23,487 bases of DNA from Candidatus Bathyarchaeota archaeon (lineage in GTDB: Archaea > Thermoproteota > Bathyarchaeia > 40CM-2-53-6), in contig VBBQ01000033.1 in NCBI GenBank assembly GCA_005888755.1, positions 79,377 through 102,863 of the forward strand. Direction: 5' to 3'. Positions 11,367 through 23,287 of the stretch are shown here, piece by piece (the stretch's first letter is position 1; every line of letters starts with the position of its first letter). The notes beneath the pieces were generated by a model. That model worked only from the letters and a program-made list of their open reading frames with translations. It ran no database searches and was not told the DNA's origin. A program made the translations under genes and the position numbers.

Positions 11367-13856
11367 TTAGTCAGATGGAGTGATTTTTCCGACATACGTG
11401 CCCCAGTTGGCGAATGTGGTTCTGGAGGTGGAGGGGATGTACTCTGTTGCGATCCATACCTGGCCTGCGTTGTCGCCAACGGCTGCGCTGTAGTCTCCCC
11501 ATCTGGCGATCCCGTTGCCGCCGGTTTCGGGGTATGCTGAGAACCCGTCCTCGGGGGCTGATCCGAGAGCGGCGACGTGTATGCCATCGGTTCCATGTGT
11601 CGTGAGTATGGCGTAGGCGGCGCTAGGATAGTAGTTTGGCCCGACCAGCGTGAACACGATTACGGCGTTCCCGTCGGAGGTGACGCCAATTGAAGGGAAG
11701 ATGACGCTTTCACCCTGTGGCGCAATATAGCCTTGGTTGAAGATTGTTCCCGAGACACTATTTGGAGAGGTCATTCTCGGAGATATGCTGAAGTATGCTA
11801 TTCCCACAGTATCAACATCTTCCCTAGTAATGTCGGTATTTACCGCGGACCATAAGAGACCGTTTGAATAGACCACCTGGTTCATTCTGTCATCGTTGCT
11901 GTCGATTAGTGCGAGAGGCTCAGTGAGACTCGTTGCGAGAGGTGCAGGACCATCCTTCTGCGCCAAAGGATTCGGCAAGCCGTACAACTCACTCGGTATG
12001 ATCTGGAGCGACAAATAGACAGTGGGAGACGCTTTGGCCAGGCTTCGAGTATTGGTGAGCGCCCATACGGCTAAGCGGTTATCGACTGTCCCGTTGAAGT
12101 CGAGCGAACTCAGGAAATATTCTGTGCCGCCGAAACTTGAGGCGTAGTTATCGCCGGCCGGGGTGGTCGCAGGTTGGATGGAGGAGCATAATGCCCCCAT
12201 GGCTGCGTCGCGCGGGGGCGTTGGAATCGATCCTGTGTCGATGTGTACGATTGTTGGGAGTATGCCGTTGGCAAGCGCGCGCTTGGACATCGCGTATATC
12301 TGCGCCCCGTTGTAGAACGCTCCAGGCGGGTAGAGACTGAACTCGTTTGTGCTGATGTAGAACCCGTTCGAGTCTGCGCCGATCAATGGCTGGTCGCCGA
12401 AGCAAGGGCATCCGAGGTGGTTCTGAGTCCCATTGTTGCCATCGTCTGTCACGTCTATGGAGTACAGGTGCCATCGGTCCCTCGGGTCCGGTGTTTTGCT
12501 GACAGCGATCTCTAAGTGGGCTCTGCCGAGGGGTCTACCGGACCCGGCTACGTCGATCTGGAGTACCGTGAGGAAGAATCGGCCGGTCTGTCTGTCATAG
12601 TAGCATCGCGGGTCGCTTACGATGTCGTTGAGAACCCGCGGGGGACCCGGCACGACCTCCGGAGGAAGTCCGAAGAATTGTGTCAGCGGTGTGGCCGGCG
12701 TCAATGATATCCCATTCTTGTCGAAAATCTGGATCACTGTGTTGACAGCCTCGATGATGAACCTGCCCCCGACACATAGGGCTTGGTCGGGTGGTTCGTG
12801 GCTGAACTGTGTGTTGTTGTATGAACCCGTGCCAGCGAGTCGCTGGTCAATGTTGTCGAGCCCGTTGAAGCCGAGATCCATTCCCGGAGTACCTGGGAGG
12901 ATAGGGGTTGGAGGTGGGTTCGGGGGGGATGTGCTGTTGCTGATCACGACGATACTTGTTTCACCGGTTCGAAAGACCAAGCCCGCTTTACCTGTCACGG
13001 TGACCGTGTAGTTTCCGGGGGGCGTGAACGCTGATGTCTCGAGTTCAAAGAGCATGGTTGTTGACGTGTCAGGAAGCAACAACACCGTGCCGGTTATGTA
13101 AGGGAGCGCGATGGGCCCTTGTCTCTTTAGTGGAGAAATCGTGAAGGACAAGCTCATCGATCCAAAGAATCCGTTTAGGCTTTGAATGCGGATCTGTCCG
13201 AAGACCCGGGCATTCAGCCCGATGGCGGGGCAGCAGAGATCGGCGATAATGCTGAAGTCGCCGGGTGCGCCTGTGCTCTCTTGCACGGTTTCCTTGTTCA
13301 ACGTGTAGCCGTTGACGACGGTTACGCAGTAGTTTGAGCTCGTGCTTGTGCCGGAACAGCCGGTCTGGAAGCCGACGACCACGCTTGGCGTGGTGCTGGT
13401 GACGTTGAAGATGATGCTGAACAATCTGCCTGTAGTCGGTGCGGTAGTAATGAATCCAAGTGCGACAGCTGCAACTCTGATAGTACCTGGTCCGTTCTGG
13501 CCTGTGGTACATCCATAGCCGGTGTTGCCTGTGCACTTTGCGACGGCGAAAATGCTTGGTCCGAGAACGCTGTCAGTTAGGTTTACCTCGACACTGGTAA
13601 GGATGCTCGGGTCTGCTTTGACGAAAATATCGAACCCGTTGATCGAATCAGAACCGTCGATATTCACTGCGATCTGAAGCTGTGTTCCATTCAAGGCCGA
13701 AATTGCCAGGGGTGTGGAAGGACAAGAGGTGGAGAAGGGGTCGGCTATGCAGACCGTTCCGGTCAACTGCCCATGAACGCGAGGAAACATTCCCTGGCCT
13801 CCGAGGAAGGCGAGAATTATCAGGAAAAAGCTGGAGAGGAACCGTCGGCGTTTCAT
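11367..13856 (-). CDS. Secreted multidomain protein: cohesin-like, Ig-like and propeller-like regions, 829 aa
   Basis: Exported protein with signal peptide MKRRRFLSSFFLIILAFLGG ending near VHG (29). Residues about 48-185 resemble a cohesin-type beta-sandwich (LQIAVNIDGSDSINGFDIFV, GTIRVAAVALG, SIIFNVT), about 200-307 form an Ig-like COG1470 repeat (GFFGSMSLSFTI, GNYTVTVTG), a Pro-rich linker spans 309-320, and 325-829 is a large region with EPPDQALCVGGRFIIEAVN, DPRCYYDRQTGRFFLTVLQI and GDQPLIGADSNGFYISTNEF, the style of secreted sialidase-like or beta-propeller proteins. No catalytic residues can be named. The frame opens at 13901, but the ATG at 13856 has GAGGTG 6 nt upstream and starts the signal peptide directly. 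No C-terminal anchor; function probably adhesion or polymer binding. Confidence 0.75.
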   Translation of the reverse strand: MKRRRFLSSFFLIILAFLGGQGMFPRVHGQLTGTVCIADPFSTSCPSTPLAISALNGTQLQIAVNIDGSDSINGFDIFVKADPSILTSVEVNLTDSVLGPSIFAVAKCTGNTGYGCTTGQNGPGTIRVAAVALGFITTAPTTGRLFSIIFNVTSTTPSVVVGFQTGCSGTSTSSNYCVTVVNGYTLNKETVQESTGAPGDFSIIADLCCPAIGLNARVFGQIRIQSLNGFFGSMSLSFTISPLKRQGPIALPYITGTVLLLPDTSTTMLFELETSAFTPPGNYTVTVTGKAGLVFRTGETSIVVISNSTSPPNPPPTPILPGTPGMDLGFNGLDNIDQRLAGTGSYNNTQFSHEPPDQALCVGGRFIIEAVNTVIQIFDKNGISLTPATPLTQFFGLPPEVVPGPPRVLNDIVSDPRCYYDRQTGRFFLTVLQIDVAGSGRPLGRAHLEIAVSKTPDPRDRWHLYSIDVTDDGNNGTQNHLGCPCFGDQPLIGADSNGFYISTNEFSLYPPGAFYNGAQIYAMSKRALANGILPTIVHIDTGSIPTPPRDAAMGALCSSIQPATTPAGDNYASSFGGTEYFLSSLDFNGTVDNRLAVWALTNTRSLAKASPTVYLSLQIIPSELYGLPNPLAQKDGPAPLATSLTEPLALIDSNDDRMNQVVYSNGLLWSAVNTDITREDVDTVGIAYFSISPRMTSPNSVSGTIFNQGYIAPQGESVIFPSIGVTSDGNAVIVFTLVGPNYYPSAAYAILTTHGTDGIHVAALGSAPEDGFSAYPETGGNGIARWGDYSAAVGDNAGQVWIATEYIPSTSRTTFANWGTYVGKITPSD

Positions 13857-13880
13857 TTCTCGCACCTCGCGAGCGGGCCT

Positions 13881-13901
13881 ATGGAGGAATACCTCCTCCA
13901 T
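13881..13901 (-). promoter_or_regulatory. Perfect hairpin in the leader of the 829-aa secreted protein
   Basis: ATGGAGGA (13881-13888) and TCCTCCAT (13894-13901) form a perfect 8-bp stem with a 5-base loop. It lies 25-45 bases before the ATG at 13856, and its stem contains a GGAGG and an alternative ATG on the mRNA strand. It could be an RNA hairpin controlling ribosome access or a dimeric-regulator operator. Confidence 0.5.
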
Positions 13902-17314: not shown

Positions 17315-20300
17315 CTACATCTTCAATGGATCGAGGTAGCCATTCGCGATATAGTTTCCAGGCGCTGTTGTGTAAATGTCGTACATCAGGTGGTTCCCAC
17401 CGTTCTCATAGTGGATACTTGTTATCGGAACCCAAGTTTGTGATATGGCATCGAAGAGGTCGTAGCCCACCTTGACATCGGTTACGGACATTAAAGTCAC
17501 CGTGCCATCTGGCATTTTCACGTAGAGCTTCTGGGCCGGATTCTGATCAACTATCAATGGCTTGCCCGTGGAAGTGCCGATGACCATCTGGTTGTGAGTC
17601 ATCACGGCAACGAACTTCGTGATCGTCGTGATCACGTACTGGTGTGTAGTCATGTCGTACGAGAGGAGCTGCATGCCAACATGCAATGATTGAACAGGGA
17701 CTTGGGTCCCGTCGGCTAGAGTTATCAGTGTGCCAGCGGAGACGCTGCCGCCTCCACCACACCCGCAACTGATGCCAACATAGACTGAGGCTGTGTGGGA
17801 TTGTGATGGCGAAACGCATAGACCAGAGGAGCAGGTGCCTGTGATAGTCACCGTGCCACTGCCACTCCCACCCGTTATCGTGACTGTCACAGTCGCCTGA
17901 CCACCAGGAGAAAGCGTTACGCTTGACGAACTTAGTGAGACCGTTTGACCTCCGCCAGAGTAGGAGAGGCTAATGGTGCCAGAGAACCCTAGGCTTGTTA
18001 CTGTAAGGGTGTCCTGAACAGTGTATCCAGGAGTGAGCGCATAGCTACACCCCGGGGACCCGCAGCTCAGTGAGACGCCGAAGTCTGCCACTCTAAGCAA
18101 AAATACACTTCCCTCTCCCCACTGGCCTGAGTTTCCCTGTAAGCTGATGGTGTATGTTCCTGGAACGGTGCTACTTGCTACGTTGAGAGTGAGCGTTGAG
18201 GAAATGCTACCTCCAGATGGGATCGTCATTGTTTGCGGGTTGAAGCTGAATGTGACCCCCGAGGGCAGGCCTCCGGTGATGTACAGTGACACTGGACCCG
18301 AGTAGCTGTTGTCGCTGTAAGCGGTCACGGTCACTGAGCCAGAGCCACCTGGGGCGATAGTAACCGATGGGGAGACTCCTATGTGGAAATTGCCAACCTC
18401 AACCGTAACGGTTGTCGTATAGGAAAGTGAACCGCTAACGGCCGTCACGGTGACGATGTAGTTACCGATTGGAGTGTTCCAAGGCACGCTCGTGGTCAGT
18501 TGACTGGAGCCTGTGCCGCCCGAACTTAGGTTGACGGTTGTCGTGCTCAGCGATCCGGTGACTCCGGATTGCCCTGTAGCGGATAGAGAAACCGCGCCGG
18601 CGAAATGAACGCTTGCCAAGTTTATGGTGCTGCTACCCGATGCGGGTTGCTGGTAAGCACCGGACTGTTGGAGGCTGACAATGCTCGGGCTCGAAGAGAC
18701 GCTGAAACTAGGTCCAATTGTTAGAGGGACGTTGACTGTGCGAGTGAGGCCCCCACCTGTTGCGGTCACTGTGACGCTGTACGAGCCTGATGAGACTGAG
18801 TTCGGAATCGACATCGCTAGGGCAGAGTTGACCGTTCCGTCTGCGGAGAGGGTGACGCTGGCTGGAGTGAGAGTTGCTGTTATGCCGGAAGGTGCGGCAG
18901 CGGAGAGTGACAGAGTGCCGCTGAACCCGCCGGTGCTTGTCGCCGTAATCGTGGTGGAAGCCGAGTCACCGTTCACACTGACGGAAGCAGGGTTGGCAGA
19001 GATGGTGAAGTCGGGGATCCGCACGACGAGAGTGATCGTGACGCTGTGGGTGCGCACTGGGGGATTACCGCTTAAGGCTGTAACGGTAACCGAATATGTG
19101 CCGGCAACACTGCCGGAGCTAATCGCGAGATTAGTAGAAGCCTGCCCCATCGACGAAAGTCGGTAGAACCCTTCGGGGGGTTGGCTGAGCGAGGCGACCG
19201 GCCCGTTAGCCACGGATGGTGAAACATTCGAGGTCAGCGAGACTTTTCCGTAGAATCCGCTCCCGGCGTTGAGGCTTATGCCACAGTTCCCTTGGTATCC
19301 TCCGACTTGGAGAGAGAGAGTGTTGCAACCTGATGAGATGCCAAAGTCTCCCTCCGGACCGAGGTTCAGAGTGACGCTCGTATCTTTCCAAGCGGTGCCG
19401 GGCGAGGAGAGAGATCCGCCAGTTTGTGCACTGTATGTGATTTTGAGTGTAGGCGAGACGGGGTCGTTGTGGGGAACGTCCCATTCAACAATGTCAAAGG
19501 TGGATGTGTCAACCGCACACGTGGGGCCTCCTGGAAAGCCGGTTGGGGTTTGGTTAGCGGGACTGCAATTGTGACTTTCGTCTTGGACGGGAGTCTCGAC
19601 GAAGCCATCCATAGTCCCCGACAGCATATCTTTCCATTGGAATGTAGGGGGAGCAATCCGTTGGGGAGTGAGAGCCTTGATCAGGCTCTCGATGCAATGG
19701 CACACCCGCTCTGCAAGGGCAACCCCTGATCCGATGGCGAAACAGACCAGGACTGACGGTGGATCAACCAAGCACAGGCCTGTCACAACGAGAGATTCGG
19801 TAAAGTCAGCGACTAGGCTGACGCTCGTATCAGGGCTCTGGCGTGGAACAGTTGTTTGAATATTGTATCCGTAAAGGTGGTTGGCTGCAGGATGGAACCA
19901 AGCACTCGCAGTATCGGAGGGAGAAGTCTTCTGGACACTGATTTTCGCATCTGTAAGATACGCAGATCCATAGTTCGGCTCATCCATCCGCACGCCATGG
20001 TCGGAAGTAAGTCCGCCCGTTGAAGGACATGTAGAGACCCCGCAAACAGCCATGTCACGATTAGGTGAGAGAGATAGCATCCCAGACGGATCGTCCAGGC
20101 CGACTGTTTCTCGCCTGTTCCATGGATCTGCGAATTCAAGCCCGTGATATCCAAACTCTATAGTGTTCTCCGTTTTTGACTGAAAGACGAGGAAGCTGAA
20201 CGAGTTAGTGCACCAATCCATGTGACAAAGTCCAGTTGATCCCTGGGTGAATATGTCATCCCAGATGACGCCGAAGTAGTTGGACTGACAAGAGTTCGGA

Positions 20301-20995
20301 TTACATACACCTGTTGGAGGTTTGTAGAACCTTATCTTGCCGACAGGATTCGCAGAGGGATCCAGAGGTTTCGCAAGCGGGGCTATGATGCTCTCCGGGA
20401 CATCGTGAAAGACCCCGTTCGAATCTACAGTGTCTTGTGCAGGTATGCTCGGATTTATGGGACAGTTGTCCATCGTACCATTGTACGAGAATGCTGCCCA
20501 ACCGTTGGAGCATACGAAAATCCTAGTGTAGGGTCGACCCCAGAAGAAAAATGGGAATGTAAAATCAACCCATGTTCCCTGATTTCTGGCCGTGAGCCCT
20601 GAATCCGTGCAGGGATTTATCGAGTTGCAATGGTCCGGGTCGCCTATATAGTAGGCAGCGTAGTTGGTGACGGTGTAGCTGTGTGGGAGACGGCTTGATG
20701 CTCCGCCCATTATTCGAAGAACGTATCGGTCATTGTCATTTCCGTCCCAGTTTCTGGTGAAGGAATAGACCTCTACCCCTAATGATAATTGTGCATCGTT
20801 CGACGCAGTTCCGCCGATGTAAGTGTTGGACAGTGTTACTGGTCCAGCGGTTCCCTGTCGATACTCGAAGGTTCCTGTTGGACGGCCTGCGGTCCAGGAT
20901 GTGTCGGCAAACACGGGGGTTATCGAGACTAGAACAGACACTGTTATGACCAGTATCGATAACGTGATCTTTTCCGGTCTTCTCCACGAGTTCAA
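17315..20995 (-). CDS. Large secreted protein with five Ig-like repeats and a C-terminal Hint domain, 1226 aa
   Basis: Exported surface protein. Signal peptide 1-30 (hydrophobic core LSILVITVSVLVSITPVFA, then D31). The N-terminal part (about 31-375) is Cys-rich and contains FPFFFWGRPYTRIFVCSNGW, like the F-x-F-x-G-x-x-Y-x-x-x-x-V-x-S-N-G core of adhesion proteins. A hydrophobic patch (LVCFAIGSGVALAERVC) lies around 420. Five COG1470-like Ig repeats follow at about 549-659, 660-760, 761-868, 869-969 and 970-1074, then CGCGGGG and a Hint domain at about 1084-1226. Hint domains come from the intein/hedgehog self-processing family. Here the first residue is Ser (SVSAGTLITLADG) rather than Cys. 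The block-B His is not evident (VDQNPAQ), and the end reads GNYIANGYLDPLKM with no final Asn. TTG start with GGGAGGTG upstream. Confidence 0.85.
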   Translation of the reverse strand: MNSWRRPEKITLSILVITVSVLVSITPVFADTSWTAGRPTGTFEYRQGTAGPVTLSNTYIGGTASNDAQLSLGVEVYSFTRNWDGNDNDRYVLRIMGGASSRLPHSYTVTNYAAYYIGDPDHCNSINPCTDSGLTARNQGTWVDFTFPFFFWGRPYTRIFVCSNGWAAFSYNGTMDNCPINPSIPAQDTVDSNGVFHDVPESIIAPLAKPLDPSANPVGKIRFYKPPTGVCNPNSCQSNYFGVIWDDIFTQGSTGLCHMDWCTNSFSFLVFQSKTENTIEFGYHGLEFADPWNRRETVGLDDPSGMLSLSPNRDMAVCGVSTCPSTGGLTSDHGVRMDEPNYGSAYLTDAKISVQKTSPSDTASAWFHPAANHLYGYNIQTTVPRQSPDTSVSLVADFTESLVVTGLCLVDPPSVLVCFAIGSGVALAERVCHCIESLIKALTPQRIAPPTFQWKDMLSGTMDGFVETPVQDESHNCSPANQTPTGFPGGPTCAVDTSTFDIVEWDVPHNDPVSPTLKITYSAQTGGSLSSPGTAWKDTSVTLNLGPEGDFGISSGCNTLSLQVGGYQGNCGISLNAGSGFYGKVSLTSNVSPSVANGPVASLSQPPEGFYRLSSMGQASTNLAISSGSVAGTYSVTVTALSGNPPVRTHSVTITLVVRIPDFTISANPASVSVNGDSASTTITATSTGGFSGTLSLSAAAPSGITATLTPASVTLSADGTVNSALAMSIPNSVSSGSYSVTVTATGGGLTRTVNVPLTIGPSFSVSSSPSIVSLQQSGAYQQPASGSSTINLASVHFAGAVSLSATGQSGVTGSLSTTTVNLSSGGTGSSQLTTSVPWNTPIGNYIVTVTAVSGSLSYTTTVTVEVGNFHIGVSPSVTIAPGGSGSVTVTAYSDNSYSGPVSLYITGGLPSGVTFSFNPQTMTIPSGGSISSTLTLNVASSTVPGTYTISLQGNSGQWGEGSVFLLRVADFGVSLSCGSPGCSYALTPGYTVQDTLTVTSLGFSGTISLSYSGGGQTVSLSSSSVTLSPGGQATVTVTITGGSGSGTVTITGTCSSGLCVSPSQSHTASVYVGISCGCGGGGSVSAGTLITLADGTQVPVQSLHVGMQLLSYDMTTHQYVITTITKFVAVMTHNQMVIGTSTGKPLIVDQNPAQKLYVKMPDGTVTLMSVTDVKVGYDLFDAISQTWVPITSIHYENGGNHLMYDIYTTAPGNYIANGYLDPLKM

Positions 20996-21891: not shown

Positions 21892-23028
21892 CTAAGTGGT
21901 AGTCGTTGTTGTCGTGGTTTTCTCTCGCGGCTCCGATCTCGATCTCGGGACCAGATACGCGCCGGTTGCTGCCATGATGAGTATGACTATTCCGATTGTT
22001 GCGTAGAACGCTATTGGTGCTAGGCCGAGGATGGTTGCGGGGGCGTCGGGTGTTTGGCTGGGTGCCGGGGTCACTATCATTGTGGTTGTCGTCGTATGGG
22101 TGGTGGGGCCGCTGGTTGCGGTTATTGTTACATTGTATGAGCCTGGGATTGTTGAGCTGCAGGATAGACTGGCTGTTCCATAACCTGGGAGACTGCCAGG
22201 GCTGATTGGATTACATGTGAGACCCGAGGGAACTGTATCTGTCAGGGTGACTGTTTCGCTGAATCCCTTGATTGCCGTTACGGTAATTGTGGATGTAGTT
22301 GACGTGCTGCTGGTCACAGACGCGGGACTCGAGGATGTGACGGCGAAGCCTGGGGAGTTCGGATTGGAGAAGATGTTTGTCGATTGTACCTTGACATCTG
22401 TATACTCTACGTAGCCACCGTCCGGGGTCGTGTCGGGGTAGAGGTTCAGGAGCCTAAACTGAAGAGCGATGCCGCTTGTCTGATCCCAGACGTATTCTAG
22501 GCTGTGGACAATGTTACTGTGACCGAATGGGGTGCTGTAGGTTGTGTTGTAGATGTTGACTGTTCTTGACACGCCGAGATAGGTCATTGAGACTGTCTGG
22601 TTGATCCTTGGTGTATACAGCGCATACGGCCCGGCCCAGAGATGGTCTCCGGACGACAATCCTCCAGCAATAAGCCCGAAGGTCAAGTTTCCTGCCCCGT
22701 TCATCAGGTCGCCGTTACGAATCTCGGTCTTGGTTGTGAAATTCTTGTACTGGGCGACGGATTGGACAGTAACGTTTGTCGACGAGTAAAACTGTTTGAT
22801 TGTGGCCGTTAACTGCGCTGTCGCATTCAGGTCTTTGATCTGCTGGGGCACAGGGGCAAAGGAACTCGTTCCGTGATAGGTTACGTTGACCGGTGCATAA
22901 CTTGCCCATTGACCCACCGTGACCCCGGCGCTGTAGACGGGACTGGCATGTGCTGGCGGGACAGCCGGGGACAACATCGCGAGGACCAGCATAAAGACTA
23001 GGATTTCGCAGGAGGACAGCCCTTTCAA
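21892..23028 (-). CDS. Membrane-anchored surface protein with an Ig-like domain and poly-Thr tail, 378 aa
   Basis: Exported protein anchored at its C-terminus. Signal peptide: LKGLSSCEILVFMLVLAMLS then PAVPPAHA. The N-terminal outer domain (about 30-220) is beta-rich with many sequons (NVTYHGTSSF, NATAQLTATI, NQTVSMTYLG, NIYNTTYSTPFG). A COG1470-like Ig repeat spans about 224-318 (GFAVTSSSPASVT, GFSETVTLTD, GSYNVTITATSG). A spacer, one TM (APIAFYATIGIVILIMAATG, about 337-359) and a basic cytoplasmic tail, PRSRSEPREK plus eight Thr, end the protein. TTG at 23028 is chosen because CCATATATG is centred about 39 nt upstream and the signal peptide begins at once. The frame is open through the window edge, so a much longer protein cannot be excluded. 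Confidence 0.7.
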   Translation of the reverse strand: MKGLSSCEILVFMLVLAMLSPAVPPAHASPVYSAGVTVGQWASYAPVNVTYHGTSSFAPVPQQIKDLNATAQLTATIKQFYSSTNVTVQSVAQYKNFTTKTEIRNGDLMNGAGNLTFGLIAGGLSSGDHLWAGPYALYTPRINQTVSMTYLGVSRTVNIYNTTYSTPFGHSNIVHSLEYVWDQTSGIALQFRLLNLYPDTTPDGGYVEYTDVKVQSTNIFSNPNSPGFAVTSSSPASVTSSTSTTSTITVTAIKGFSETVTLTDTVPSGLTCNPISPGSLPGYGTASLSCSSTIPGSYNVTITATSGPTTHTTTTTMIVTPAPSQTPDAPATILGLAPIAFYATIGIVILIMAATGAYLVPRSRSEPREKTTTTTTTT

Positions 23029-23062
23029 GGGAAGATACGCACCGAACGCTGTCGCATCCCCC

Positions 23063-23071
23063 CATATATGG
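23063..23071 (-). promoter_or_regulatory. TATA-like box of the anchored surface protein
   Basis: The minus strand reads CCATATATG, centred 39 nt before the TTG at 23028, giving a leader of about 14 nt. It matches the spacing at the DedA-family, 74-aa and HTH_45-like genes and supports the TTG start. Confidence 0.5.
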
Positions 23072-23110
23072 AATCTAGAAAATGGACTGTCCGTAGGCCG
23101 GCACGATTGG

Positions 23111-23287
23111 TTATTCTTCTTTGGAGAATCGGACTCCCGCTTGGCGAAGAAGCTCACTGACATCTTTGCTAACTGTCTCGAGGCTGGTAACGCACTTGAA
23201 GAAAGACCAGTCTTGTCCTTTTGCGTAGCCTTCCGGGTCCCGGTCGCGTTCACATGTGTGGTGTTTGAATGTGGGATGATGTAACAT
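23111..23287 (-). CDS. Small hypothetical protein, 58 aa
   Basis: ATG-to-TAA ORF upstream of the anchored surface protein. It begins MLHHPTFKHHTCERDRDPEG, continues YAKGQDWSFFKCVTSLETVS and ends KDVSELLRQAGVRFSKEE. Four His and a C-x20-C pair (C12, C32) could bind metal, and the C-terminal helix is amphipathic. The product is hydrophilic and reads like a real cytoplasmic protein, better than the other frames here. No family is recognised and no TATA box is obvious, so it may be co-transcribed with a gene beyond the window edge. Confidence 0.45.
   Translation of the reverse strand: MLHHPTFKHHTCERDRDPEGYAKGQDWSFFKCVTSLETVSKDVSELLRQAGVRFSKEE

Follow-up and report, generated by a model that had tools for sequence, protein, structure and literature searches.

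Hint domains of described function

The block-B His has been described as the most conserved residue of inteins, and Arth_1007, a natural intein that lacks it, is an inactive pseudogene (PMC3196547). The Tko CDC21-1 intein is an exception, in which a Lys compensates for this His (PMC7765530). In the Ssp DnaB intein a bulky residue at position -1 can stand in for the block-B His, whereas Gly cannot (PMC6333167), and in the Ser1 intein PolB16 the block-B His is dispensable but the His of the NX motif is required (PMC10189870).

The Hint domain studied here ends an exported protein of a Candidatus Bathyarchaeota archaeon (source assembly of 2.0 Mb, 95% complete), the gene of which lies in a stretch of 23,487 nucleotides that was analysed as a whole and is referred to as the window. 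The family to which it belongs resembles each of the described systems in part. With the B-type BIL domains it shares a Hint fold of about 143 residues, variable exported hosts and the lack of both a terminal His-Asn and a C-extein nucleophile; unlike them it is archaeal, has Ser1 instead of Cys1, lacks the block-B Thr and His, and is usually the last domain of its protein. The missing terminal His-Asn also distinguishes it from the A-type BIL domains, in contrast to a Roseibium Hint domain that has TPGH and VHN. It differs as well from the BIL2 domain of the Tetrahymena BUBL1 locus, which conjugates ubiquitin-like domains and retains Cys1, the catalytic His69 and Asn143. Like the Hog/Hint domain of hedgehog (1at0), it is found at the C-terminus of an exported protein behind Gly-1, but the equivalents of C258, T326, H329 and D303 and the sterol-recognition region are missing. 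Ser1 and the block-F Asp are shared with class 1 Ser1 inteins such as PolB16, whereas the NX His, the Thr, HN and the +1 nucleophile of those inteins are not. Finally, YD/RHS repeats and nuclease-like tips occur in some members, as they do around the PT-HINT domain of polymorphic toxins (PF07591); the Bathyarchaeial domain, however, is located inside the YD array and not just upstream of a toxin, it misses the catalytic residues, and most members are toxin-free.

We give roughly even chances to the interpretation that this is a lineage-specific, non-canonical Hint domain, domesticated in soil Bathyarchaeia to serve on exported proteins as a cassette for surface attachment or display. A candidate surface-attachment module could thereby be named for the Bathyarchaeia, a widespread uncultured group with a cell surface about which little is known.

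An exported protein with a C-terminal Hint domain

The open reading frame at 17315-20995, reported in the preliminary description as a surface protein with five Ig repeats, was confirmed and could be placed on the minus strand, as are all its features given below; it has a TTG start and encodes 1226 amino acids, stop codon included in the coordinates. The host is indeed an archaeon. The protein starts with a signal-peptide-like segment that, judged from the sequence, indicates export (residues 1-30, MNSWRRPEKITLSILVITVSVLVSITPVFA; 20906-20995), followed by a region in which the Pfam search found no family (residues 31-555; 19331-20905) and by five Ig-like repeats with matches to Ig_VWA7 and NPCBM_assoc (approximately residues 556-1075; 17771-19330). 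A hinge, SCGCGGGG (residues 1076-1083; 17747-17770), the last Gly of which (Gly-1) is invariant in the family alignment, leads to the 143 residues of the Hint domain (residues 1084-1226, from SVSAGTL to ANGYLDPLKM; 17318-17746). The hinge had been considered well suited to self-processing. It turned out not to be specific: GGGGG also precedes an Ig domain without Hint in the same genome (L097), and since a scan for Gly runs found Gly5 outside Hint proteins as well, the Gly hinge is not diagnostic.

The assignment of the tail to the Hint fold had been made from motif order, with structure prediction and comparison to hedgehog and intein folds proposed as a check. By itself, the Hint sequence of the window has a best Pfam E-value of 0.016, which is below the cut-off, and as its sequence search of the PDB gave no match, the evidence for the fold comes from profile and model comparison. 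In Pfam, members of the family match PT-HINT (to 3e-6), Hint_2 and Hom_end_hint. The family profile was aligned by hhalign to four archaeal mini-inteins with a probability of 98.6% (E 1e-15), and in genome scans it recovered true inteins of other Bathyarchaeia (E 1e-6 to 1e-3). An AF2 model built from 18 sequences, with a pLDDT of about 90 in the core and about 50-60 in the tail from D139 onward, matches BIL, intein and hedgehog structures with VIA Z 16-19 and an rmsd of about 2 A. The top match is Tetrahymena BIL2 (6y75, 6tmm; Z 18.8, 140 aligned residues, rmsd 1.9, 18% identity), and further matches are the C. thermocellum BIL domain (CthBIL; Z 17.4), the Ssp DnaB intein (17.4) and hedgehog (1at0; 16.5). 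In these comparisons Ser1 (model residue 20) superposes on residue 1 of the inteins and on residue 258 of hedgehog. The C-terminal 143 residues are a true Hint domain, homologous to inteins and BIL domains.

Residues kept and lost

The reading of position 1 as Ser holds (codon AGC; 17744-17746), and its invariance in homologues, set beforehand as a test, was found: a nucleophile-type residue is present as Ser in 17/17 full-length members, each with Gly at position -1. All members encode Ser1 by AGY, a single step away from the Cys codon TGY, and a divergent relative, L021 (G017), carries Cys1 (PPPPGGG/CVAQGTP, with TATNQP replacing TxxH). On account of these two observations a Cys1 ancestor of the family seems likely. 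L021 possibly links ordinary Hint domains to the Bathyarchaeial family.

The block-B residues had a different fate. In the profile alignment to mini-inteins TxxH falls on N69-P-A-Q72 (17531-17542), so that the His is, as had been suggested, replaced within VDQNPAQ; the segment itself is not invariant. Position 69, equivalent to the Thr, is occupied by N (14), A (2) or S (1), and position 72, equivalent to the His, by Q (10), M (3), L (2), F or E, with His in 0/17. Given such variable replacements, no general acid/base has been retained. Of the BIL-type motifs, A and F are thus accompanied by a motif B that has neither T nor H. If C258, T326, H329 and D303 of hedgehog are taken to correspond to S1, N69, Q72 and V46, none of the four hedgehog residues is kept. 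No conserved His was found in the 17 members at positions 42-52, which we take to be the NX region (also 44-50) from our own alignment to Pol inteins. A His is present at position 119 (17390-17392) in 15/17 members, with Phe or Tyr in two related ones; as it precedes Asp123 by four residues on the same strand, it is probably located outside the active site.

At the C-terminus, ANGYLDPLKM (17318-17347) replaces the splicing motif NG..(V)HN. The chain ends in YLDPLKM and has no C-extein, and the terminal His-Asn and the +1 Cys/Ser/Thr are absent in the window protein and in the family alike. The preliminary description was right on the missing Asn and extein, although NG is followed by 7 residues and not 8. 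Protein splicing, which it had called impossible, is indeed excluded, there being no terminal Asn, no C-extein and no TxxH.

Codon parsimony over 142 columns of the 17 full-length members gave 981 synonymous versus 855 amino-acid-changing events. Fifteen columns have no amino-acid change at all: Gly-1, Ser1, Gly5, Gly24, Tyr30, Thr58, Asp67 (17546-17548), Thr89, Gly94, Trp105, Gly117, Asp123 (the block-F Asp; 17378-17380), Ala134, Gly136 and Asp139. The canonical catalytic set has been lost save for residue 1 and the block-F Asp, and the domain is under purifying selection. That the losses are specific to this family, and do not reflect the genome as a whole, is shown by an Lhr-like helicase of the same genome (L066; G000:C25:144540-144800), the intein of which bears an endonuclease and is canonical, with C1, VTPNH and THN-C.

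The loss of catalytic residues, together with the existence of truncated copies, could also be expected of a decaying intein or BIL relic that has no present function. This reading is disfavoured, and we regard it as very improbable: 17 full-length copies are in open frames, neutrality predicts roughly 3x more changing than silent events, the 15 columns remain without any change, and the domain has repeatedly recombined onto new proteins. The truncated copies themselves (L014, L017, L022 and L023) are Hint fragments that lack the N-terminal part, which suggests a rapid turnover of the cassette.

Cleavage at the Gly-Ser bond

The family has been selected over a long divergence in which the block-B His and Thr were dropped and Ser1 and Gly-1 were never lost. 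Hence, either the Hint domain has been reused as a purely structural or attachment module, or there is a new mode of Ser1 activation. Self-processing at Gly/Ser1 by an altered chemistry is the main rival of the attachment reading, though the less probable of the two. Ser1 would attack the carbonyl of Gly-1 in an N-O acyl shift, aided by Asp67 and Asp123 or by strain instead of the block-B His, and the ester would then be hydrolysed, so that the stalk is released, or be passed to a nucleophile of the envelope, so that the stalk becomes attached; hedgehog and Tetrahymena BIL2 are comparable cases. What speaks positively for such a self-cleavage, which is possible, is conservation: zero changes at Gly-1, Ser1, Asp67 and Asp123 versus 855 over the domain. 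The Cys1 relative and the AGY codons, the C-terminal placement behind a Gly hinge and, in the model, the position of Ser1 on that of the nucleophile in solved Hint domains would fit as well. Moreover, BIL2, to which the model is structurally closest, couples the partner on its N-terminal side to amines (PMC8616854), and PolB16 tolerates the functional loss of the block-B His (PMC10189870).

Other observations count against it. The block-B Thr and His have been exchanged for non-catalytic residues in all members, and Arth_1007, which has no block-B His, is inactive (PMC3196547). The residue at -1 is in all members Gly, the very one that does not rescue the loss of His in Ssp DnaB. The tested Ser1 inteins depend on the NX His, which is missing here from the region presumed to be equivalent in our alignment; the counterpart of hedgehog D303 is missing too. 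In three members, cleavage would cut the surrounding YD shell. Canonical hedgehog-type processing was rejected, for want of equivalents of T326, H329 and D303 and of a sterol region, the protein stopping with the Hint domain. There is therefore no support for cleavage by one of the known Hint mechanisms, although selection on Ser1 and Gly-1 is clear. The hedgehog-like cleavage before Ser1 proposed earlier stays hypothetical: the absence of His and Thr throughout the family weakens it, and the retention of Ser1 and Gly-1 keeps it in play. A more specific form of it, in which a Ser1-Asp centre without catalytic His cuts the invariant Gly/Ser bond and joins the Gly to a lipid, sugar or protein of the archaeal envelope, seems improbable to us. 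If true, it would amount to an enzyme-free, hedgehog-like surface anchoring of many exported archaeal proteins.

Distribution of the family

The genome of the window carries three copies, and the Hint family is present in 13/21 genomes of the same archaeal family (leaving out G018, the match of which is an intein). Within the class (256 genomes) it is confined to that one archaeal family, four other matches being intein-bearing genes. The named relatives are soil archaeal MAGs: Candidatus Bathyarchaeota 'BA' isolates, 'Crenarchaeota 13_1_40CM_3_52_17' and 'archaeon 13_2_20CM_2_53_6'. The scan of contigs outside the lineage used one short pattern, which relatives without the YIANGYLDP motif could escape. 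The family was absent from the viral contigs searched, and the phage and plasmid records searched yielded ordinary Hint domains alone, with 22-27% identity. Pairwise identity among the 17 full-length members is 34-82%, with a median of 44%. In the open-access literature we found the Hint family of soil Bathyarchaeia undescribed.

Proteins to which the Hint domain is attached

In 14/17 full-length members the Hint domain comes last in the chain. The exported proteins that carry it there are unrelated to one another and comprise Ig stalks, BNR-like propellers (L030, L031), a matrixin (L027; PF00413, E 2e-7) and others without a family (L026, L032). Homologous propellers of the same archaeal family show which domains can take the C-terminal slot. 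Hint is found there in L102 and L103, two orthologous neighbours of each other that are the sole Hint-bearing members of the comparison; an Ig domain with a hydrophobic helix, called transmembrane by hydropathy alone, and a basic tail in L104, L106, L107, L108, L111 and L112; and a dockerin in L105, L110 and L113, with 2/3 matches just below the Pfam cut-off. In L109 the slot is empty.

In the remaining 3/17 members the domain is internal to YD-repeat proteins, hundreds of residues of YD repeats separating it from the C-terminus. One loop of these proteins is an insertion hotspot, which contains Hint in L068, L071 and L073, an Ig domain in L069, and no insert in L070, L072, L075, L076 and L077. 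The YD-repeat members that are long enough to show it, L029 and L033, have nuclease-like, polymorphic-toxin-like C-terminal regions, for which a Pfam match was obtained in L029 alone (LHH, PF14411). For the window protein a polymorphic-toxin HINT was rejected, as no toxin domain lies downstream of its Hint domain.

From the exchange in both slot and loop it follows that Hint and Gly hinge make up a mobile cassette, in a position equivalent to that of anchors, docking and display domains. If the domain indeed serves attachment, the flexible, Gly-rich hinge would join the cassette to the exported protein and the Hint would be a folded domain that binds an envelope partner. It would thus hold an Ig stalk, propeller, metalloprotease or YD shell at the cell surface, presumably with no canonical self-cleavage, and Gly-1, Ser1, Asp67 and Asp123 may be a structural or ligand-contacting remnant of the active site. 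In favour of attachment are the exchange, in a small sample, with anchors of the transmembrane type, with dockerins and with Ig domains, and the fact that a domain otherwise conserved has lost the block-B T and H in all full-length members. Against it counts that the conservation of Ser1 and Gly-1, unchanged over 17 divergent members, exceeds what a purely structural role would lead one to expect.

The presence of a C-terminal cassette behind a Gly-rich hinge on many unrelated exported proteins is also what a recognition domain would look like, read by a separate protease or transpeptidase that cuts or transfers at the hinge, in the manner of sortase-type sorting signals. We hold this to be quite improbable, as no recurrent neighbour gene was found at the Hint loci, the Gly hinge occurs without Hint (L097), the member L002 has no long Gly run, and three members are internal.

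Ordinary anchoring is represented in the window as well. Near the Hint protein, 21892-23253 (minus strand) encodes an exported protein that carries a hydrophobic helix at the C-terminus and a tail of poly-Thr, which is an ordinary anchor type. Furthermore, an exported protein of 844 amino acids (11367-13901, minus strand) has a weak Cohesin match that is below the cut-off (PF00963, E 8e-4), and in the genome of the window about six ORFs have a dockerin that passes the cut-off; a cohesin-dockerin system in the Bathyarchaeia is possible.
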